This document shows, piece by piece, positions 8,135 to 47,277 of a stretch of DNA of 48,733 nt. The notes under the pieces are model-generated. The model was not told where the DNA came from and did no database searches. It worked only from the letters and a program-made list of their open reading frames with translations. The stretch's first letter is position 1; every line of letters starts with the position of its first letter. A program made the position numbers and the translations under genes. The stretch is from Candidatus Solincola quzhuomuensis (GTDB taxonomy: Bacteria; Actinomycetota; Geothermincolia; Geothermincolales; RBG-13-55-18), in assembly GCA_015711855.1 (NCBI GenBank), contig JACVJF010000009.1, forward strand, positions 1 through 48,733. Reading direction: 5' to 3'.

Positions 8135-9517
8135 ATGAGAAGGAGAGCGAAGTGGTTGGTCTTCGCGACCGTCGCGCTGTTGGTAGCGGTTCCCATCCTG
8201 TCGAGCTCTCTGGTGGCGGCGGAGGACACATCCGGCCAGAGCACCCTCAAAGGAAGGATACAGGCGCTGGTTTGGCAAGACACCGACGGTAACGGGACTT
8301 TCATCGTCAACGGCGTTTACACCGACGGAGAACTGATCGACGGCGTGGAGGTGAAGCTGTACAAGAAGGAGGCGGACGATTCCTGGAAGTATGTCGGCAG
8401 CAAGACGACCGGCGCAGGTGGCTACACGGAATTATTCACCCCCTATTATTTCCCTCACGGATGGGTGGGCTGGGATGACCTGGAAATCGCCGATCCCAAC
8501 GGCTTCACCTACTACAAGCTGGAGATCGCCACTGAAGAGAAGGTAATAGGAAGCAAAGAAAGAGTGGCGAGCCTCTATCTCTGGAACTACTACTCGGCGA
8601 GGTTCCTGCAGGCGGACTCGGGCTCGGAGGAGGCCGCCTTCCGCCTGGCGGACAAACCTGCTGAGCCCCAGCCCCTGCCCCAGCCCGAGATTCGCGACGT
8701 GGGGTCGGTCCAGGCGCTCGTCTGGGACGACATCAACAAGGACGGAAAGTTCGTCGAGCCCAACGGACAGTACAGCATCGAGGAGCTGATCGACGGCATC
8801 ACGGTCAATCTCTACCGCAAAGCGGGAGACGCCTGGGAATTCGTGGCCAGCGCCAAGACTGGCCCGGGTGGATACACGCCTTTCTGGTATCCGCACGGGT
8901 GGGTAGGGTTCAAGGATCTCCCCATCGCCTGGGACTTCTGCACCATCACCGATTACAGGCTGGAGCTGGTCACCGACAAGACCTTCAAGGTCATCGGGGA
9001 CTCCTTCCGGGCGGTTCCTCTAAATGCCTGGAACTCGTGGAGTCTACGCTATTTCGCGGTCGAGTCGGATTCGGCGGACAGGGCTTTCCTCATCCAATCC
9101 ACGAGCGTCTCCATCTCCGGAACCGTCTGGTACGACGCCAACGCGGACCAGGTCCGGGAGTGGCACGAACCGGGGTGCGCCGGTTGGACCGTGGTGATAA
9201 CGGACTGCTTCAACCGCAAGATCGCCACTGTGAAGACGGACGCCGGCGGCTACTACCGAATCCGCGGCCTCAAGGGCGGAACCGTCTATAAGGTCTGGAT
9301 CACGGCACAGAGCGGTTGGAAGCAGGTATATCCGTACTACAAACTGCTCACCATACCACCCTGGGGATGCGAGAAGGGCCACCATACCATCCGGGCGGAA
9401 GCCGGCAAATACTACATCAACAAGGACTTCGGCATGTTGAGCATGCAGGATTCCAGTTGGGCCACGCTCTACTACGTCCTCTGGTGGATAGGGCTGCTGC
9501 AATACCAGTTCCAGTAG
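8135..9517 (+). CDS. Secreted protein with three SdrD/Cna-B-like domains
   Basis: 460 residues from the ATG at 8135, chosen because GGAGGT (8121-8126) sits 8 bases upstream and a signal peptide (MRRRAKWLVFATVALLVAVP) follows at once; the longer frame from 8030 has neither. After export, the protein carries two related domains of about 135 residues (about 35-170 and 185-325), each with a VW.D...DG.F..NG.Y...ELIDG...LY sequence and a YFPHGWVG or YPHGWVG motif. A third (about 330-440) reads ISGTVWYDANADQ...TDAGGYYRIRGL, typical of SdrD B-like repeats. No LPxTG motif or membrane anchor is visible, and the C-terminus is aromatic (YYVLWWIGLLQYQFQ). A structural or adhesive surface role is inferred from the domain type only. 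Confidence 0.75.
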   Translation: MRRRAKWLVFATVALLVAVPILSSSLVAAEDTSGQSTLKGRIQALVWQDTDGNGTFIVNGVYTDGELIDGVEVKLYKKEADDSWKYVGSKTTGAGGYTELFTPYYFPHGWVGWDDLEIADPNGFTYYKLEIATEEKVIGSKERVASLYLWNYYSARFLQADSGSEEAAFRLADKPAEPQPLPQPEIRDVGSVQALVWDDINKDGKFVEPNGQYSIEELIDGITVNLYRKAGDAWEFVASAKTGPGGYTPFWYPHGWVGFKDLPIAWDFCTITDYRLELVTDKTFKVIGDSFRAVPLNAWNSWSLRYFAVESDSADRAFLIQSTSVSISGTVWYDANADQVREWHEPGCAGWTVVITDCFNRKIATVKTDAGGYYRIRGLKGGTVYKVWITAQSGWKQVYPYYKLLTIPPWGCEKGHHTIRAEAGKYYINKDFGMLSMQDSSWATLYYVLWWIGLLQYQFQ

Positions 9518-36120: not shown

Positions 36121-39100
36121 TCAGGCCTGCATGGCGTCGGGGTGAGAAGTGGAGAGAGGTGTTTCTCCTCCGGGTTGTGGTAATCGCACGAGGAACAATG
36201 ACCCCTTTCCGTGCTCGCTGCGGACCTCGATGCGGCCTCCGAGCGCATCGACCAGTCGGCTCACGATATAGAGACCGAGACCCATGCCCTTGATGGAGCC
36301 GCGTTCCTCACCACCGACCTTATGGAAAGGCTGGAAGATGAGGTTGATGTTCTCCTGGCTGATTCCCTGCCCCTGGTCCCTCACCCCTATAAGGACTTCC
36401 TCCCCGGACCGCCTGGCGAACACCTCCACCTTTGAACCGGGAGGAGAATACTTGACCGCGTTGTCCATCAGGTTGAAGAGGATTATCTCCAGCTTGTCGC
36501 GGTCGCAGATCATCCTTTCCGCCGTTTCGTCTACGTCCAGTTCCACGAGGTGTTCGGTGGAACGAGACCGCAGCTCCTCCCTCAGTCCCGAAAGCACCTG
36601 GACCAGGTCGACCTCTTCCAGATCCACAGCCAGTTTTCCCGACTCCAGCCGAGATATCTCCATCATGTTGACCACGCTGCGGCGGAGGCGGTCGGCGGCC
36701 CGGTTTAGTTTCTCCACCACCTCCCGGCTCTCTCTGGTGTTCAACCATTCGCGGTAGTCGCGGAGAACCTCGGAAAAGCCCATAATCAAGGTTAGCGGGT
36801 GACGTATCTCGTGGGCAGCCAGGTTTATGAGGTCCGTCTTCATGCGCAGTTTCTCCTCCTGGACACGGCACATGTCCTCCAGGAGATCGATACGCGCTTG
36901 CATGCCCTCCAGCCTCAAAGGAACGGCGAGGGAGCCCGCCAACAGCTCAGATGCCTTTTTTGCCAGCTCCGCTTCACGGGTACCGAAGGCGCCGGCACGG
37001 GTACTCCCCAATAAAAGCATACCTTTGAAACCCGCCCCCAGCACGGGAACGGCAAGATAGGACCTTATACCCTTCAAGGCCAACTCGTCCTCTCCCGGCT
37101 CCCTGAAAAACGTGTTCAGATTGTTGCGCGTAACCTGCCCCGCCCGCTGGGCCGAAATGGCCAACCAGCCCTCGGGATCGGCAAAAGTTCCCAGCTCCTT
37201 CTCCTCCAGTTTCTCCCCCTGCATCCAACCCAGCCTCTTCATCCCCGTCTTGCCGTGGAGGGCGATGACCAGAAGGTCGGCCCCGGCCGATTCCCTCATC
37301 TCCTGATACATCACGCCTCCCATCTCCTCCAGAGAGGCGGACGCCGACAACCGCCTAGAAACGTCCAATAGATTCCGGTATTCCGAGGTTGTCACCTCGC
37401 TCCTCGCCCTATCCTGCAAAGATTCCAGGGTCGCTGTCGCCTGCCCGGCCAGAAAATACAGCAGGCGTTTCTGATAATCCATGAACGCGCTCTTGCCCTC
37501 CTCGCGTTCAACGAACAGTAGGCCGAGGGTCCCCCTCCTTCCCACCAGGGGAACGGCGATGCGTTGGGAAGCTCGCTCTCTCGCTTCCTGCGCCTCCCTA
37601 ACCGGCGCAGCCGGACTCCCTCGCTCGTCAGATTCCATCTTCTCCCAATAAGCAAGAACGGAAAGATCCAGCTCCCTTGATCCGTTTCGGGTTTCCAACG
37701 CGCCCCTGAACGTTCCCTCCTCCTGATCCACGACCAAGACCACGGCTCTATCGCAATCGAGCATATCCCTGCTTCCCTTGGCCATGATCCGCAAGGCGCG
37801 CTCCTGGTCATCACAGGCCGCCAGTTCTCCCTCCAGCTCGGCCAGCTTCTCCAGCGCACGCCGGTAACCGTCGGCGAGCATCCTCTCGTGGACGCCCCGG
37901 GCCAGCCCGAGGGCCAACCGCAGAAGGGGAGAAAGGGAGTTTAGCTCCGCCTTGGTCAGTCGAGAATGGCTGTGGAGGTAAAACCCTCCCAGAAGAAAGC
38001 GGTTCCCCTCCCGGATCGGCACCAGCAAAAGAGTGAGGCCCTCGGAGGCGGCCTGTTCCCCGGCCGGCATCTCTCGCATGATGGCGTTCTCCGGTTTGAC
38101 CACCGCCATGCGATGCAGGTTTTCCGCCGTCTTCTCCAAGGCCGGCGTGGTCTTGAAGAGGCTCTCCCCCCCGTAAATTGAGCCCGCATACCAGAGGAAA
38201 TCCCTCGTGTCGTCTTCCCAACCCGCGTAGAAAAAGGCCATGGCCGAGTTCAGTTCCAGGGAAAAATCGCGTAGAGCCGAGGAAAGGAAGTCCTTCCTGT
38301 TCGCAGCCCTGTCGGCCATTCTGGAAAACTCCTCCACAAGGCTCATGAACCCACTGGGCGAACGGACGGCCTTTCCGGCTTCCTCCCCCGCTTCCTCGCC
38401 GGAGAAAAGCGCTGCCAGGCGGTGGGTCACCTGCACCAGAAGGTCCATGTCCTGCGGCTCCATGGCCGCGTAGGAGCGGCCGAAGAGGGTCAGCAGCCCT
38501 ACCAGCCGGTCGTCCTGATATATGGGTGTCAAGAGAAAGGACTTTACCTGGTTGGCGTGAAAATACGGCTTGACCACCGGAAAGTACTCGCTGATCCTCA
38601 CGGCGTCCAGGCTGAACTCCCTTTCCCCGGATAGGCGCATGCTCTGAAGCAGGTCGAGAAGCCCGTCCTCGAAAAGTTGCTCGATGATATCGGGCATCCC
38701 TCCCCATCCCCGTGAGGCGATCAGGGTGGCCATGCTCTGACCGCCCACGCTACGCACTCGGTGGATGGTACCTCCCTCCATGTTCAAGAGCTTAATAAGA
38801 AGGTCGAGGCTAAGGGAGGCAGCCTGTACGCAATCCGCCTTCCCGATGAGGTAATCGGAAAGAATTCCCAATTCCACCTCGGGGCGGCCCACTTTCTCCA
38901 CGGCCTCCTCCAGCCTGTCTTCTATGGTAAACATTTCCACCATACGCTCCAGGACGACGCCGACCGCCGCGGCCTTGAAGGACTGGGGATCGGGAAGGGG
39001 CTTATCCCGCGGGATGCTTATCACCAGGGCCGCCCTAAGATAGGCGTGGGTGCGGATGGGGAAGAGGACAAGGGTGTCCGTAGGTGCGGTTATCTCCTCC

Positions 39101-39402
39101 AGTCCCAGTTCGGACACGGCCATGCTTTCCAGAACCAGGAAGCGACGAGCCGGTTGTCGGTAGACCCATTCCACGGGGAGCAACCTGCCCCGTACGGCTT
39201 CCTTTTCCCGCTGTCCCAGCTTCCAGGTCAACCTCGGTTCCAGGAAGGAGGATGCCGAACGGCGCATAAACAACACCGCCCGCTCGCCTCCCACGGCTTC
39301 CACCACCGTCCCCAGGACCTCCTCCAGGGAAAACCCCTGAGAATATCTCCTGAGGGTCTCCCGGTAGAGATCCACTGCCTCCTTCAGTTCCATCTTTTCC
39401 AT
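36121..39402 (-). CDS. Cytoplasmic sensor histidine kinase with five GAF-like domains
   Basis: 1093 residues, no signal peptide or membrane segment. Five GAF-like domains occupy about residues 15-160, 185-340, 360-520, 545-690 and 700-860. The kinase core follows: the H-box AAHEIRHPLTL (His about 864), the dimerisation helices, the N-box MDNAVKYS, and the G1, F and G2 motifs VRDQGQGI, FQPFHKV and GMGLGLYI. It would phosphorylate itself on the histidine and pass the phosphate to a response regulator, but none lies in the window, so it is an orphan. The many GAF domains suggest it binds several small ligands or cyclic nucleotides. The start ATG has GAGGGTGA upstream. Confidence 0.92.
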   Translation of the reverse strand: MEKMELKEAVDLYRETLRRYSQGFSLEEVLGTVVEAVGGERAVLFMRRSASSFLEPRLTWKLGQREKEAVRGRLLPVEWVYRQPARRFLVLESMAVSELGLEEITAPTDTLVLFPIRTHAYLRAALVISIPRDKPLPDPQSFKAAAVGVVLERMVEMFTIEDRLEEAVEKVGRPEVELGILSDYLIGKADCVQAASLSLDLLIKLLNMEGGTIHRVRSVGGQSMATLIASRGWGGMPDIIEQLFEDGLLDLLQSMRLSGEREFSLDAVRISEYFPVVKPYFHANQVKSFLLTPIYQDDRLVGLLTLFGRSYAAMEPQDMDLLVQVTHRLAALFSGEEAGEEAGKAVRSPSGFMSLVEEFSRMADRAANRKDFLSSALRDFSLELNSAMAFFYAGWEDDTRDFLWYAGSIYGGESLFKTTPALEKTAENLHRMAVVKPENAIMREMPAGEQAASEGLTLLLVPIREGNRFLLGGFYLHSHSRLTKAELNSLSPLLRLALGLARGVHERMLADGYRRALEKLAELEGELAACDDQERALRIMAKGSRDMLDCDRAVVLVVDQEEGTFRGALETRNGSRELDLSVLAYWEKMESDERGSPAAPVREAQEARERASQRIAVPLVGRRGTLGLLFVEREEGKSAFMDYQKRLLYFLAGQATATLESLQDRARSEVTTSEYRNLLDVSRRLSASASLEEMGGVMYQEMRESAGADLLVIALHGKTGMKRLGWMQGEKLEEKELGTFADPEGWLAISAQRAGQVTRNNLNTFFREPGEDELALKGIRSYLAVPVLGAGFKGMLLLGSTRAGAFGTREAELAKKASELLAGSLAVPLRLEGMQARIDLLEDMCRVQEEKLRMKTDLINLAAHEIRHPLTLIMGFSEVLRDYREWLNTRESREVVEKLNRAADRLRRSVVNMMEISRLESGKLAVDLEEVDLVQVLSGLREELRSRSTEHLVELDVDETAERMICDRDKLEIILFNLMDNAVKYSPPGSKVEVFARRSGEEVLIGVRDQGQGISQENINLIFQPFHKVGGEERGSIKGMGLGLYIVSRLVDALGGRIEVRSEHGKGSLFLVRLPQPGGETPLSTSHPDAMQA

Positions 39403-39678: not shown

Positions 39679-42627
39679 TCAGCCGATAACCGGATAGCGC
39701 CTGAAGACCAGGTATATCCCCGTTATGGAGAGGATGAACAGGACGGAAAGGCCCGCCGCCACCAGCAGACTGACCCGGTTGCCCTGCTTGTAATTATAGG
39801 TGGCCGGGGTCTGATATATGAAGGTGAGCGTGTTCACCTCTGCGTCCGGCACGCGTCCCAGGATATGGTCGAACCGTTCGCCCCGCACCTTGATGGCCTC
39901 CAGCTCCGCCTGCGTGAGATACAGTCCCGCGAGGTTTTCCGCCAGACCCGCGTACATTACCGCCGTCCCCTCCTCCATAGCCCTGGTCAGTCCCTCCTTG
40001 ACCTGTCTCACGCCGCTGTTCACCTGGTCGGCGCCGTAGATGAGGGTGTCCGGCGTGGAGGCGCTACCCAGACCGGCCACGGCTTCTCCCAGCCCGGCAG
40101 AGATCATGAGCAGACCCTCCTTTATCCCGGGTGAGTCCATGTTCCCGGAAGAAAGGCCGGTCTTCACCTGGAAGAGTCCGCTCTGAACCTGGGCCATGGC
40201 GTAGAGGAGGGTGTCCGGAATCCCGGCATCCCCGATGCCCGCCTTCATCAACTCCAGTCCGTTCTGTACCTGGGCCACGGCATATAAGAGGGTGTCCGCG
40301 GTTCCCGCGGAACCGATGCCCGCTTTCATCTGTTCCAGCCCTGATCTCATGGCCGACATGGCGTAGAGCATGGTGTCCGAAGAGTTCTCCGCACCTATAC
40401 CCGCCTTCATCAACTCCAGCCCCGCCTCCACCTGGGCCACAGCGTAGAGGAGGGATTCCTCCGCCACCGGGTTGCCTATTCCGGCGAGCATACGGTTCAG
40501 CCCTCCCTGCACCTGATCCACGGCGTAGAGGAGGGTGTCCGATGTCGTCTCCGATCCTATGCCCGCCTTGAGCATCTCCAATCCCCCTTGAACCTGGGCC
40601 ACGGCGTAGAGGAGGGTGTCCGAAGTTTTCACGGAACCGATGCCCGCTTTCATCTCCTCCAGTCCACCCTTGATCTGGGCCGTCCCATAGAGCAAGGTGT
40701 CCGGCGTGGTGGAGGAGCCGATGCCCGCGATTATCTGGTCCGCCCCGCTCATCATCAGCTCACAGCCGTAGTGGATGGAGGGGTTTTCCGGATCGGTGCT
40801 CAGGACTATTCCTTGCTCCAGTTGGTCGACGATGGGTCCGGTCCAGGGGGCCAGGAGACGTATTATGTTCAAGGCCTGGTAGATAAGGCCAGTGGTGGCG
40901 GTGTTCACCCAGATCTCGTACAATCCGTCTCGGATCTGCTGCACACCCTCCAGCACGCCCGGGTTTTCCGGATCCCCGCTGCTGAGCCCCTTGCTGATCT
41001 CACTTATTCCGTAAAGCAGCGTGTCCGGGGTGGTTTCGCTTCCGATGCCGGCGAGCATCCGACTCAGTCCGTCGGCCATGGCCGCCAAGCCGAAGAGCAT
41101 GGTGTCCGGCGTAGTGGAGCTGCCGATGCCTTGAAGCGCCTGGTGAAGCCCGTTCTGCATGGCTGCCATGGCGTAGAGGAGGGTGTCGGGGGTTCGCGCG
41201 GAACCTATACCTTCCTTCATCTCTTCAAGCCCGGCTCCCATGCGGTCCATGGCATAGAGCAGGGTGTCCGGCATGGCCGCCTCACCTATTCCTTCCCTCA
41301 TAGCCCCTAAGCCCAAGGCCACTTGATCCGCGGCATAAAGGAGGGTGTCGGGGATGGTCTCGCTCCCGATACCGGAGAGCATCTGCTGCAGGCCTCCGCG
41401 CATGGCCTCCATGGCGTAGAGAAGCGTGTTGGTCACGGCCGGGCCCCCTATACCCGCTAGCATCTGTGCTAAGCCTTTGGAGGCCTCGCTAACCCCGAAG
41501 AGCAAGGTGTCCGGCGTATCTGGCGAGCCCACGCCGCCAACAACCTGGTCTATCCCCGGAATGAGCTGGGAATCGAGGTTGGCTTTGGCATAGGGAAGGC
41601 CGCTCCGGGCATCGGCCATTTGCTTCAGGCCTTCCAAGATGGCCGTGGTCCCATAGAGCAGCGTGTCCTCCTCCTCCGGGCTCCCTAAGCCCCGCAAGCC
41701 CTCCGTGAGCCCTTCGTGCAACTGCTTGACCCCGCCGAAGAGCGTCTCCAGGCCAGCCACGAACTCGGTGAGGGGGTCCCGCTGGTTGGTCTGGGGGAAG
41801 ATGAAGTTCACCGACAGCACCAGGGGCGGTTTTCGGAAATTTCTTACGTCCGCCTCGACCCAAATGGTGTGGGTGTCATCGGTGGCGGGAGGGAATAGCG
41901 GTATGGACCACCCCACCTGCCAGTGATCCGGCAAGGGGACCACCAGACCCGTGGGGTCGGCCTTTACGTTGAAGAAGACGTCGTTGTCGAAGTACCAGTC
42001 GTAGGGGAGGATGACCAAGGGCAGGTATACCTCCACTTCCTCTTCCCTGAGCTCTCCCGTCTCCGGGTCACGGTAGGAGACCTTGGTCTTCTCCTTGCTG
42101 GTGTTGGTCATGGTCAGCTCCAGGCGGAAGTGCCCGTCCCTGCCGGTGATGTCGTTGGGGTCCTCGACCTTTTGGCCGTCAAGAAAGTACCTGTACTGTA
42201 GTTTCAGGGGGATCTTCAGGCGGACCTCTTCGGCCGTGGCTCCGCTGAACTCCATGGAGCTCAGGAGGTTGCGGTTACCGGCGACTTTCACGTCCCTCCA
42301 CACCAGGGCACCGTCCTCCAGCCGGGGGACGGTGAACCCGTGTACCCCCTGCCATTTTCCATCTCCTTCCAAGTCTTTCTCCTTGAAGACATCTGCTTCT
42401 CCGGTACCGGTCAAGCTTATGAAGGAGATCACCCTGCCCTTTTCAACCTCGCCTCCGAAGTCGGTTTCCAGGATCACCGCCTCGGAGCTCATGATCTCGA
42501 TCCCTCCCTCCTCGGACTCCGCTTCCGCCGCGGGGAAGAAGTTCAACATGATCATGCAAAGCGATCCCGCCAGAGCGGCCACTATGAGGGACCTCGCCGG
42601 ACCGCGTCCCTTTCTCACCCCTACCAC
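39679..42627 (-). CDS. Membrane-anchored surface protein with 16 copies of a 27-residue repeat
   Basis: 982 residues. A signal peptide (SLIVAALAGSLCMIMLNFFP) is followed by a beta-rich domain (about 40-290), then an array of 27-residue repeats (about 310-865), an intervening segment, and one membrane helix near the end (VSLLVAAGLSVLFILSITGIYLVF) with a short cytoplasmic tail. The repeat consensus is GIGS..TPDTLLYA...V..GL..MKA, with G, D-T-L-L-Y and G-L most constant; it resembles the helical X-repeats of YhgE/Pip-type proteins in layout but not in length. The family is not one I know. It is probably an extended, stalk-like surface protein. The gene lies between the histidine kinase and the giant HEAT-repeat gene, all on one strand, with separate gaps. 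Confidence 0.7.
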   Translation of the reverse strand: MVGVRKGRGPARSLIVAALAGSLCMIMLNFFPAAEAESEEGGIEIMSSEAVILETDFGGEVEKGRVISFISLTGTGEADVFKEKDLEGDGKWQGVHGFTVPRLEDGALVWRDVKVAGNRNLLSSMEFSGATAEEVRLKIPLKLQYRYFLDGQKVEDPNDITGRDGHFRLELTMTNTSKEKTKVSYRDPETGELREEEVEVYLPLVILPYDWYFDNDVFFNVKADPTGLVVPLPDHWQVGWSIPLFPPATDDTHTIWVEADVRNFRKPPLVLSVNFIFPQTNQRDPLTEFVAGLETLFGGVKQLHEGLTEGLRGLGSPEEEDTLLYGTTAILEGLKQMADARSGLPYAKANLDSQLIPGIDQVVGGVGSPDTPDTLLFGVSEASKGLAQMLAGIGGPAVTNTLLYAMEAMRGGLQQMLSGIGSETIPDTLLYAADQVALGLGAMREGIGEAAMPDTLLYAMDRMGAGLEEMKEGIGSARTPDTLLYAMAAMQNGLHQALQGIGSSTTPDTMLFGLAAMADGLSRMLAGIGSETTPDTLLYGISEISKGLSSGDPENPGVLEGVQQIRDGLYEIWVNTATTGLIYQALNIIRLLAPWTGPIVDQLEQGIVLSTDPENPSIHYGCELMMSGADQIIAGIGSSTTPDTLLYGTAQIKGGLEEMKAGIGSVKTSDTLLYAVAQVQGGLEMLKAGIGSETTSDTLLYAVDQVQGGLNRMLAGIGNPVAEESLLYAVAQVEAGLELMKAGIGAENSSDTMLYAMSAMRSGLEQMKAGIGSAGTADTLLYAVAQVQNGLELMKAGIGDAGIPDTLLYAMAQVQSGLFQVKTGLSSGNMDSPGIKEGLLMISAGLGEAVAGLGSASTPDTLIYGADQVNSGVRQVKEGLTRAMEEGTAVMYAGLAENLAGLYLTQAELEAIKVRGERFDHILGRVPDAEVNTLTFIYQTPATYNYKQGNRVSLLVAAGLSVLFILSITGIYLVFRRYPVIG
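40035..41695 (-). repeat. Tandem 81-base coding repeats (16 units)
   Basis: Each unit encodes one 27-residue GIGS..TPDTLLYA repeat. Fourteen units are in two blocks of seven, separated by a non-repeat segment (about 40740-41005), with one degenerate unit before and one after. The DNA keeps a strongly conserved GTAGAGGAGGGTGTCCG-like core (plus strand). The repeats are divergent at their ends, so the array is old, not a recent expansion. Confidence 0.85.
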
Positions 42628-43158: not shown

Positions 43159-46100
43159 TCATTCCGCGCGGCGCAAGACCTCGCCCAGCTTACGCGCGCT
43201 CCGGATATCCTCCAGGAGGCACTGGGCCATCTCCCTGACCTCCGGATCATCGTCCTCCGACCTCGCCTCGAGCGGTCCGACGGCGGCCTCTCCCAGCTCC
43301 GCTACCTTGCTCCACTGCTTGGTGGCCAGGTAGAAGAGGGCTTTTTCCTCCTCCCCGGACGCCACCCAACCCAGCTTTTCCAGAGAGACAGCGGCTCTGG
43401 CCCGCACGTCGGCATCCTCGTCGGCCAGGGTTTTCACCAGGGAGGCGGCGGCCTTCTTGTCCCCGATCTTCCCCAGGGCCCAAGCGGCTCTCATCCTTAC
43501 TTCCCGATCGGAATCCTGCAGGCTGGAAAGGAGCGGCTCCACGGCCAAGGGCTCCCCTAAGGTGCCCAGGATCGTAGCCGCCATGCGCCTCTTTTCCACA
43601 TCGGGATTGTTCAGATTGCGAAGGAGCGGTTGAACCGCGGGTTTGCCCAGCCTGGCGACCTCCTCCCATTTCTTCTCCCGGATAAGGCGTTCGGCCAATT
43701 CCTCCTCTTCGCCCGTTTCAAAGCCGAGATTCTTCAGTATACCGGAAGCGAGATCGCGCACTTCCTCGCTTTTGTCCTGTAAGAGAAGGCGTAGATGAGC
43801 CGCGGCGGGTATGCCGATCTCCTGCAATATCCAGGCCGCCTTCCTGCGCGCGCCTCGATCGCCACCGCGCAGGGTGTCCAACAGAGGGATTATCGCCGCC
43901 TCCCCGCGGGCCAGGACCTCGCTCCAACGCCGCTGCTTGATAAGTTCCCGGATGTCCTCCTTCTCCACTGCAGGAGCAGCCGCCGCCTCTCTCCGCTCCA
44001 CCGCGGGGGCCGCCGCCTCTCCCGCCAACTCAGGTACGGCCTCCGCCTGGGCCTCCTCAACAGCGGCCTCCACCACTTCCTCGAAAGGCTTCTCCGCCTC
44101 CCCGACGGCGACCTGAGGTTCAGTTGCGGCGGATACCGGGGTCTCTTCCGGCAGCGCCGCTTCCCTTTCCGTAGATATGACGACCTCCGGCCTCCATCCA
44201 ATTTCTTCCAGAGCGTGGGAGGCAGCGGATCTCACCGCCTCTTCTTCGTCTTCGACAGCCTTTAAGAGCCCTTCCGCCGCTGCCCCCTCTCCGAGTTTGC
44301 CCAGGGCGAAAGCGGCTTTTTCCCGTACTCGGGGCTCCTCGTCGTCCAGCGCGTCGAGGAGCGGCCTTAAAGCCCTCTTGTCCCCTATCTCTCCCAGGGC
44401 CCAGGCGGCTTTGGTGCGCGTCTCTACGTCTCCTGAGGCCAAGGCCTCGATGAGAGATTCCACGGCCACGTCACCCATCCCCGCCAGGCGGTCCCATTGC
44501 CTGCCGGCGATGAGTTTGGCGACTTCTTCCTCCTCACTGGGCTTCCATCCCAGTTTCTCCAGCACCAGCAGGCTCACCCGCCGGACATCCTCATCGGGAT
44601 CCTTGAGGCAAGAGACCAGTTTATCCACGGCTCTTTCATCGCCGATCTCTCCCAGAGCCCAGGCCGCCTTTCTCCGGACCTCGGCATCATGGTCATCCAG
44701 GGATCCGATCAACGCGTCTACCGCCCGTCGGTTTCCGATAACCCCCAGGGCCCAGGCGACCCCACTGCGCACGGAGGCATCCTCGTCCTCGAGATGGGAT
44801 ATGAGCGGTTCCATGGCCCTGTCATCTCGAATCACCCCCAAAGCCCAAGCGGCGCCGCGCCGCACGTCGGCTTCCTCGTCGTCCAGGACGGCTAGCAGCG
44901 CGTCCAAGGCCTCCGCGCCCAGTGCGGCCACCTGCTCCCATTTCCCGTCCAGGATGAGCTTCCTCGCTTCTTCTTCCCCGAGCTTACCGGCGATGGGCAC
45001 CTCTTCTTCCTCGATGATGCCGGCAGAGACCTCCTCCTCCGCCTCCACCAGCTCCGGAGGCTCGCATCCGAGTTTTATCAACAGTGAGGATATTCTCTCC
45101 CGCAACTGCGGATCCCGCTTCTCCAAATAGGCCTCCTGGAGGGCTTCCAGGGCGGGTTCTCCGATCTTCTCCAGGGCGTCGACCGCTCTCGACCTCACCC
45201 TCTCATCCGGATCCTCCAGCGCCTTGATAAGGGGTGCTATAGCCCGCAGGTCCCTCATCTCGCCCAGTACCCTGGCCGTCTCCCGGCGTATCTCCTCGTT
45301 ACCTTCATGCAGCGCCTCGATAAGGGAATCGGTGCATATTGGACCGATTTTCTTCAAGGCTCCTGCCGCCTTTATCCGCACGTCACGTACAGGATCCTCT
45401 AGCGCCCGGATTAGGTATTCGACGGCCTGGGAGCTTCCTACAACCCCCAGGGCCCAGGCGGCCTTGGACCTGACCTCCTCATCCTCGTCCTCAAGGGCCC
45501 GGATGAGAGAGGGCACCGCCTGTTCTCCCAACTCCGTGACCTTGTCCCATTCCCGTTTGCGGATATGCTCCTCCGCCTTTTGCACTCCCTCAGGCCTCCA
45601 GCCCAGTTTCCCGAGCACCTCGGAAACGCTGGGAAAGGGTTCGAGTCCCTCTTCCTCCGTCACGGTCTCCTCCCCGCTCGGCACCAGCTCTTCCGGCTCG
45701 CCGGGTACCAGGGGCATCTTCTCTCCGAACACGGATTCCTCGGCTTCGGCCTCCGCCTCCGCTTCTTCCCTGGCCTTGAGTTTTTCCAATATTTCCTCCG
45801 CGATTCGACTGGTGTCCTCCTCCTCCAGGGCCTTGCTCAGGGAGGGCAAGGCCTCCTCCCCCATCTCTCCCAGGGCCCAGGTGGCGGCGCGGCGCACGTC
45901 CTCGTCCTCATCCTTCAGGGCCTGGACCAAAACCTCGCCGGCCCTTCGGTCCCCGGTAACCCCGAGAGCCCAGGCGGCCCCGCGCCTTTCTTCCACGTCG
46001 CCCGCCTGCAACACCTCAAGGAGCGGTTCGACGGCCAACGCCCCTATCCTGCCCAGGGCCCAAGCGGCGGCGCGGCGCACATCCTCGTCCCTGTCCTTCA

Positions 46101-47277
46101 AAGCGCCTATGAGGGCCTCCACGGCCCTTTCGTCCTGTATCTCTCCCAGAGCCAAAGCGACGCTACGGCGCACGAACCAGTCCTCGTTCTTCAGTGCCTC
46201 CAGGAGCAGGTCCAGATATCCCTCATCCCCGATCTCCTTGACCAAAAGGGCTGCCTCCCTGCGTATGTCCTCATCCTCGTCTTTCAACGCCTCCATGAGA
46301 GACCGGAGCATATCCTCGTCTTCCTTGATCATGCCGGCCACCTTGCTCCTGACCTCCCAGCCCTCTTTTTTCAGGGCCTTTAAGAGATAGGGCATGGACG
46401 CTATCCCGAGTTCCGTCAACTTTTCCCATTGGCGGTTCGCCAGATAGAAAGGAGCCCTGTCCTCCTCCCGCTTCGGTTGCCATCCCAGCTTGTCCAGCAC
46501 CACCGCCGACAGGCGCCTGAGCTCGTGGTCCTCGCCACGGAAGTAACTCTCGAGCGGGGGCACCGCCCTCCTGCTGTTGATGCTTATAAGCGCTGCGGCA
46601 GCCTCCCTGCGCACCTCCTTGTCCTCGTCCTTCATGGCCTCCACGAGGTGGTCGATGGAGGATTCGTCGCGGATGATCCCAAGGGCTATGGCCGCGTCCT
46701 TTTTGGCCTCCTTGTCCTCCCCGTAAAGCGAGTTGATCAGGGATTTGACCGCTGTCGGTCCCAGCTTTTCCAAAGCCCAGGCCGCCGCCCAACGGACGTT
46801 GTCGTCCTCGTCCTTCAGGGCCTGCACGAGGGGACGCACGGCGCGCACGTCACCTATGGAGCCGAGAACCAGGGCCACCTTGGCTTTTACCTCACCTTTT
46901 TCAGTGCGAATGGCTTCCATCAGTGAATCCACTACCGCCTTCCCTATCTTCTCCAGGGCCCAAGCCGCTTTCCACCGAACGTCGCCATCCTCGTCGTGTA
47001 AGGTCTGGATGAGGGGGCGCGCCGCAGGTTTGCCTATCTCGCCCAAAGCCCAGGCCGCCGCCCAACGGACGTCCTCGTCCTGATCGTGTAGGGCCTCGAT
47101 AAGGGGAGCGACCGCTCTGGCCCTTTTCAGTTTCCCCAAGGCCAATGCCGCATTTATGCGGAAATTGACGTTATCGCTCTTCAGGGCCTGTATAAGGCCG
47201 GGAACGTCGCGCTTGGCTTCCAGTTTCTCTATGTTGGGCTTGATAAGTTTGCTTTTGGAGGACTTGAAGATTTTCAC
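43159..47277 (-). CDS. Giant HEAT-repeat protein (1372 aa)
   Basis: A cytoplasmic protein of 1372 residues built from roughly 35 PBS-lyase-type HEAT repeats of about 31 residues (for example DVRRAAAWALGRIGA and EVRSKAAWALGVVGS). The arrays are broken at seven places by a motif of the form LGW.P......A...I..R.W..V..LG..AV..L (variants include LGWQPKREEDRAPFYLANRQW and LGWRPEGVQKAEEHIRKREW), and by two acidic/alanine-rich linkers. No enzymatic, signal or membrane motif is present, so it should be a large solenoid scaffold. GTG at 47277 has GGAG 8 bases upstream. The small HEAT protein at 16650 is the same repeat class but lacks the LGW motif. Confidence 0.9.
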   Translation of the reverse strand: MKIFKSSKSKLIKPNIEKLEAKRDVPGLIQALKSDNVNFRINAALALGKLKRARAVAPLIEALHDQDEDVRWAAAWALGEIGKPAARPLIQTLHDEDGDVRWKAAWALEKIGKAVVDSLMEAIRTEKGEVKAKVALVLGSIGDVRAVRPLVQALKDEDDNVRWAAAWALEKLGPTAVKSLINSLYGEDKEAKKDAAIALGIIRDESSIDHLVEAMKDEDKEVRREAAAALISINSRRAVPPLESYFRGEDHELRRLSAVVLDKLGWQPKREEDRAPFYLANRQWEKLTELGIASMPYLLKALKKEGWEVRSKVAGMIKEDEDMLRSLMEALKDEDEDIRREAALLVKEIGDEGYLDLLLEALKNEDWFVRRSVALALGEIQDERAVEALIGALKDRDEDVRRAAAWALGRIGALAVEPLLEVLQAGDVEERRGAAWALGVTGDRRAGEVLVQALKDEDEDVRRAATWALGEMGEEALPSLSKALEEEDTSRIAEEILEKLKAREEAEAEAEAEESVFGEKMPLVPGEPEELVPSGEETVTEEEGLEPFPSVSEVLGKLGWRPEGVQKAEEHIRKREWDKVTELGEQAVPSLIRALEDEDEEVRSKAAWALGVVGSSQAVEYLIRALEDPVRDVRIKAAGALKKIGPICTDSLIEALHEGNEEIRRETARVLGEMRDLRAIAPLIKALEDPDERVRSRAVDALEKIGEPALEALQEAYLEKRDPQLRERISSLLIKLGCEPPELVEAEEEVSAGIIEEEEVPIAGKLGEEEARKLILDGKWEQVAALGAEALDALLAVLDDEEADVRRGAAWALGVIRDDRAMEPLISHLEDEDASVRSGVAWALGVIGNRRAVDALIGSLDDHDAEVRRKAAWALGEIGDERAVDKLVSCLKDPDEDVRRVSLLVLEKLGWKPSEEEEVAKLIAGRQWDRLAGMGDVAVESLIEALASGDVETRTKAAWALGEIGDKRALRPLLDALDDEEPRVREKAAFALGKLGEGAAAEGLLKAVEDEEEAVRSAASHALEEIGWRPEVVISTEREAALPEETPVSAATEPQVAVGEAEKPFEEVVEAAVEEAQAEAVPELAGEAAAPAVERREAAAAPAVEKEDIRELIKQRRWSEVLARGEAAIIPLLDTLRGGDRGARRKAAWILQEIGIPAAAHLRLLLQDKSEEVRDLASGILKNLGFETGEEEELAERLIREKKWEEVARLGKPAVQPLLRNLNNPDVEKRRMAATILGTLGEPLAVEPLLSSLQDSDREVRMRAAWALGKIGDKKAAASLVKTLADEDADVRARAAVSLEKLGWVASGEEEKALFYLATKQWSKVAELGEAAVGPLEARSEDDDPEVREMAQCLLEDIRSARKLGEVLRRAE

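Follow-up and report, generated by a model that had tools for sequence, protein, structure and literature searches.

Elongated extracytoplasmic heptad stalks on a membrane anchor are the common plan of the YhgE/Pip and EsaA/YueB proteins. EsaA and YueB can reach across the wall, and SPP1 uses YueB as its receptor (PMC9600267). Another arrangement is given by MmpS5-MmpL5 of Mycobacterium tuberculosis, where a coiled coil within MmpL5 extends into the cell wall (PMC12501195).

The stretch analyzed here, in the following called the window, covers positions 1 to 48,733 of contig JACVJF010000009.1 of Candidatus Solincola quzhuomuensis. Its open reading frame 39679-42627 on the reverse strand (982 aa) encodes what we term the window protein. 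It resembles YhgE/Pip and EsaA/YueB in carrying an elongated stalk on a membrane anchor, but has another N-terminal domain and a single C-terminal transmembrane helix (TM) rather than a polytopic region. As in MmpS5-MmpL5, the family pairs the gene of an MMPL transporter with that of an extracytoplasmic partner bearing a beta domain (PMC12501195). However, the coiled coil there belongs to MmpL5, whereas in the family it is the partner protein that carries the stalk, and in Geothermincolia DUF1097 stands in place of the transporter. The likeness to DUF1097 (PF06496) is seen in the upstream partner at locus L053, which scores above the family cutoff (29.2 versus 24.6 bits, E 1.2e-6).

We propose, at a probability of roughly 0.55, a two-part membrane module in which the stalk protein is the extracytoplasmic stalk or adaptor subunit; the stalk family would probably form the outer arm of a membrane machine that is widespread but undescribed. 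The original prediction, made from the window alone, had overlooked both the neighboring membrane gene and how broad the family is. The openly accessible literature that we searched on the heptad repeat, on DUF1097 and on YhgE with MMPL yielded no account of the pair of stalk gene and membrane gene, nor of a stalk partner for DUF1097.

Domain layout and repeat array of the window protein

Table 1. Features of the stalk gene in the window; residues are counted from the listed open reading frame.
Feature	Position	Strand	Residues	Evidence
Probable GTG start codon	42616..42618	-	4	AGGAGG at 42632-42627, 8 nt upstream
Signal peptide, hydrophobic core 13-31, AEA/ES site, cleavage expected after AEA (residue 36)	42520..42618	-		Hydropathy
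N-terminal all-beta domain	41806..42498	-	44-274	AlphaFold2 pLDDT mostly 70-92; conserved in 48/296 Actinomycetota genomes
Single 27-residue unit	41611..41691	-	313-339	Unit HMM
Block 1, seven 27-residue units	40969..41535	-	365-553	Unit HMM, exact 27 spacing
Inter-block region, degenerate units including 29-residue unit 606-634	40726..40968	-		Sequence; helices in model
Block 2, seven 27-residue units	40159..40725	-	635-823	Unit HMM, exact 27 spacing
28-residue variant unit GLSSGNMDSPGIKEGLLMISAGLGEAVA	40075..40158	-	824-851	Sequence; conserved in relatives
Last 27-residue unit	39994..40074	-	852-878	Unit HMM; 55-residue spacing conserved in relatives
C-terminal juxtamembrane domain, conserved	39793..39966	-	888-945	Alignment of relatives
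Single C-terminal TM helix, cytoplasmic basic RRYPVIG tail	39700..39777	-	951-976	Hydropathy; model helix

Translation probably begins with the GTG at 42618, which has a good Shine-Dalgarno sequence: the AGGAGG precedes it by 8 nt and overlaps with the GTG listed at 42627. Hydropathy and AlphaFold2 agree with the signal peptide, beta domain and C-terminal membrane anchor that had been predicted; hydropathy puts the TM segment at residues 953-971, and the AxA sites of the signal peptide are conserved among relatives. Judged from this order of signal peptide, ectodomain and C-terminal TM, the window protein appears to be a type I membrane protein. Searches against Pfam, NCBIfam and PDB sequences gave chance matches only, among them IagB and EF-hand library matches, which were rejected.

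The unit HMM confirms 16 copies of the repeat, arranged in two blocks of seven plus single units, and autocorrelation confirms the 27-residue period. The layout is 1 + 7 + 7 + 1, with unit starts at residue 313, at seven positions each within 365-527 and 635-797, and at 852; spacing is exactly 27 within both blocks. BLOSUM autocorrelation reaches +1.33 at lag 27, followed by lags 54, 81, 108, and 135, while 300 shuffles, over all lags, reach no more than -0.36. The periodicity is far above chance. The consensus is GIGSxxTPDTLLYAxxQVxxGLxxMKA, whereof G1, G3, L12, G21, and L22 are invariant in all 14 block units. Variant units of 28-29 residues (GLSSGNMDSPGIKEGL...), overlooked before, follow each block.

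Mean identity between the units is 51% (30-78%) at the amino acid level and 58% at the DNA level, low values which argue that the array is old. A recent tandem duplication or an assembly artefact was rejected on account of the 58% mean DNA identity and the 7+7 layout shared by orthologues.

AlphaFold2, run for the whole protein on a 28-sequence alignment, yielded a model with a pTM of 0.43 and a mean pLDDT of 73. It shows nearly every unit as a 19-residue helix followed by an 8-residue loop (pLDDT about 75-88, in places lower). Of the 'stacked helical stalk' that had been suggested, the helical part is thus borne out by the model, but stacking is not, given the pTM of the whole and the poor fold obtained when one block was modelled, as originally proposed: block 2 in isolation (14 sequences) reaches a pLDDT of 48, and hence we make no claim on the packing of the helices. 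The beta domain gave weak Foldseek matches to the mu-homology domain (AP2 mu2 C-terminal; E values between about 1e-5 and 1e-4, a target TM of about 0.45 and 9-11% identity). In the predicted model, this likeness to clathrin adaptors would be a resemblance of elongated beta-sandwiches only. The beta-domain profile found no match among PDB sequences, and Foldseek matches to Aminopeptidase N (TM 0.1) were discarded as meaningless.

Spread of the family and relation to heptad stalks

Of 59 relatives, 27 carry homologues of the window protein, and almost all of these belong to the same class; the named records are Candidatus Solincola, Geothermincola, and Geohydrothermomicrobium. The family is conserved across Candidatus Geothermincolia with pairwise matches throughout the class, where many genomes carry two paralogues; in the tree, the Geothermincolia stalk proteins constitute one group (support 100/99). 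A profile of the N-terminal beta domain detects relatives in 48 of the 296 sampled Actinomycetota genomes, and tblastn adds one homologue on a Subdoligranulum (Clostridia) plasmid. Against the A2 profile, of which the window itself is a row, the window's beta domain reaches E 1.4e-123. Thirty-nine alignment columns are invariant, nearly all of them N-terminal; by this measure, the beta domain evolves more slowly than the rest of the stalk protein.

The repeat had been put forward as not recognised. This holds for the window protein, which has no library match at cutoff, but not for its homologues, several of which reach the heptad model TIGR03057 (X-X-X-Leu-X-X-Gly, NCBIfam). At the curated cutoff of 18.6 bits, the distant homologue L066 (30.1 bits) and several Geothermincolia homologues are above, while the best score of the window protein is 13.8 bits and lies outside the blocks. 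Its unit contains V-x-x-G-L-x-x-M-x-x-G, which equals two such heptads; it differs in the period of 27 and in a 13-residue insert, IGSxxTPDTLLYA. Five distant homologues tested display a heptad period (lags 7, 14, 21, 28), with lag 7 as top lag in four of them, and none has a 27-residue period. In the window protein, lag 7 exceeds all 300 shuffles over the whole stalk region, and is no higher than shuffles when the blocks are analyzed separately.

The window repeat elaborates a known kind of heptad stalk in a new way. We infer that the 27-mer arose in Geothermincolia from a heptad stalk, as two heptads plus a loop, and was multiplied afterwards. Geothermincolia proteins contain 3 to 18 recognisable 27-mers; most members keep the first and last units, and expansion has occurred in the middle. 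Among the intact close orthologues, L037-L040 have 16 units and L042 has 18. Units at the same position are 61-73% identical between closer orthologues, as against 51% between units within the window protein, and therefore the array is older than the split of these genera. The family illustrates how a common heptad stalk could become a regular 27-residue repeat, with the length of the protein set by the number of copies.

Partner membrane genes and the proposed two-part module

Nearly all intact homologues directly follow a polytopic membrane gene. Among Geothermincolia, 17 pairs have a DUF1097-like gene whose end lies at -20 to +31 nt from the start of the stalk gene. An MMPL/RND transporter gene is found directly upstream in about 15 distant Actinomycetota homologues and in Subdoligranulum, mostly overlapping or a few bases apart; larger negative gaps are a product of over-long ORF starts. 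At L065, L132, L134-L137, and L142, a small multi-TM gene abuts the stalk gene. Taken as a set, these small partners show a relationship to those of Geothermincolia (profile E values as low as 3e-13), and several match them by profile in one or both directions, several being individually below the DUF1097 cutoff. At L141, a multi-TM domain and the beta domain are fused in frame within a single ORF, which has no repeats. No multi-TM gene is present at the junctions of L067, L143, and L139.

The partner type goes along with the form of the stalk. Stalks beside MMPL genes have no C-terminal TM, and an FWxRFxxLF-like tail closes many of them, while most stalks beside DUF1097-like genes retain the C-terminal TM. 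The MMPL-linked stalks are one side of a 100/99 branch. With full-length ORFs, their MMPL partners are only 685-732 aa long, which makes it plausible that the stalk is supplied in trans.

The chief argument for what may be a physical complex is that the pairing is kept with two types of partner and in one fusion. Against it stand the window gene and L041, neither of which adjoins a DUF1097 gene, the junctions of L067, L143, and L139, and the small partners below the DUF1097 cutoff. In the proposed module, the beta domain would be held off the membrane by the helical-repeat stalk, and the second part would be the polytopic protein encoded directly upstream, DUF1097-like in Geothermincolia and some other Actinomycetota, MMPL/RND in others and in the Clostridia member. 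The complex would handle hydrophobic or lipidic cargo, or a signal, through the stalk across the cell wall; this transport-like role is suggested by the MMPL association and by analogy to MmpS5-MmpL5 (PMC12501195). DUF1097, a domain of unknown function, hereby gains a probable partner and a link to MMPL transporters via a common external subunit, and both roles become testable. A farther-reaching version, which we consider rather unlikely, is a new class of cell-wall-spanning machines in which a small DUF1097 protein replaces the MMPL/RND transporter while the homologous external stalk is kept; DUF1097 would then be a stalk-coupled translocator or lipid handler, and stalk length would be tuned by the number of 27-residue units.

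Somewhat unlikely, too, is that the protein works on its own at the surface, as an adhesin, a ruler or a fibre resembling phage receptors. The stalk would then raise the beta domain over the cell wall for binding, and the membrane gene would be only an insertion helper or chance neighbor. The variation from 3 to 18 units is as in reach-setting stalks, the window copy has no adjoining partner gene, and the heptad-stalk relatives EsaA/YueB include a receptor (PMC9600267). However, adjacency or overlap with the membrane gene persists in divergent lineages with two unrelated partner kinds and one fusion, and the slow evolution of the beta domain is unlike a typical adhesin tip.

A divergent YhgE/Pip/EsaA member in a type VIIb-like secretion apparatus appears improbable. 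Besides the common plan and the TIGR03057 scores of some relatives, the heptad region of L066 aligns with proteins annotated YhgE/Pip. Against it, the N- and C-terminal YhgE/Pip models TIGR03061 and TIGR03062 find no match in the window protein at E<=10, a single C-terminal TM takes the place of the polytopic domain, and the neighbors examined include no recognisable type VII gene.

The window copy, its paralogue and neighboring genes

The window stalk protein falls into a clade with L045 and L037-L043, and is a lineage-specific paralogue with a longer stalk. L045 and L038 retain the DUF1097 gene, which is absent next to the stalk gene in the window and at the nearest orthologue, L041; a hidden or decayed DUF1097 gene was sought upstream of the window stalk gene and not found. 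The single PF06496 match in the window's genome lies beside the other paralogue (locus C28). For both paralogues of the genomes G013, G006, and G014, the contig breaks off immediately upstream of the stalk; the sequence at these ends is 97-100% identical between the paralogues, as expected if near-identical DUF1097 copies were located there. G010 has two such copies (L038 10261-10869 and L053 5939-6490), 99% identical over 589 bp, beside stalks that are 73% identical, which suggests gene conversion or recent copying. The window lineage probably lost its second DUF1097 copy. Within the two-part module, the window copy would then most likely share the one DUF1097 protein encoded beside the other paralogue.

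Downstream of the stalk gene, on the same strand, 36121-39402 (-) encodes a 1093-aa histidine kinase with several GAF domains, and several relatives keep a kinase of the same cluster on the same strand downstream of their window-type stalk gene. That the stalk protein is a sensor which perceives an envelope signal and feeds this kinase is nonetheless very improbable, since the two genes are 276 nt apart, the kinase, HEAT-protein and other genes track the locus and not the stalk family, and the other paralogue lacks this gene directly downstream.

The HEAT protein is encoded at 43159-47277 (-); its 1372 aa consist almost entirely of HEAT/PBS-lyase-like repeats, and it is near the stalk gene also in the orthologous loci L038 and L041. 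Lipoproteins of one cluster occur near stalk genes at L046 (7501-8415), L051 (5758-6651), and L055 (3266-4138), the L051 member matching DUF6612. At L041, a frameshift around 9419-9495, either real or an assembly error, splits the orthologous stalk gene of G001.
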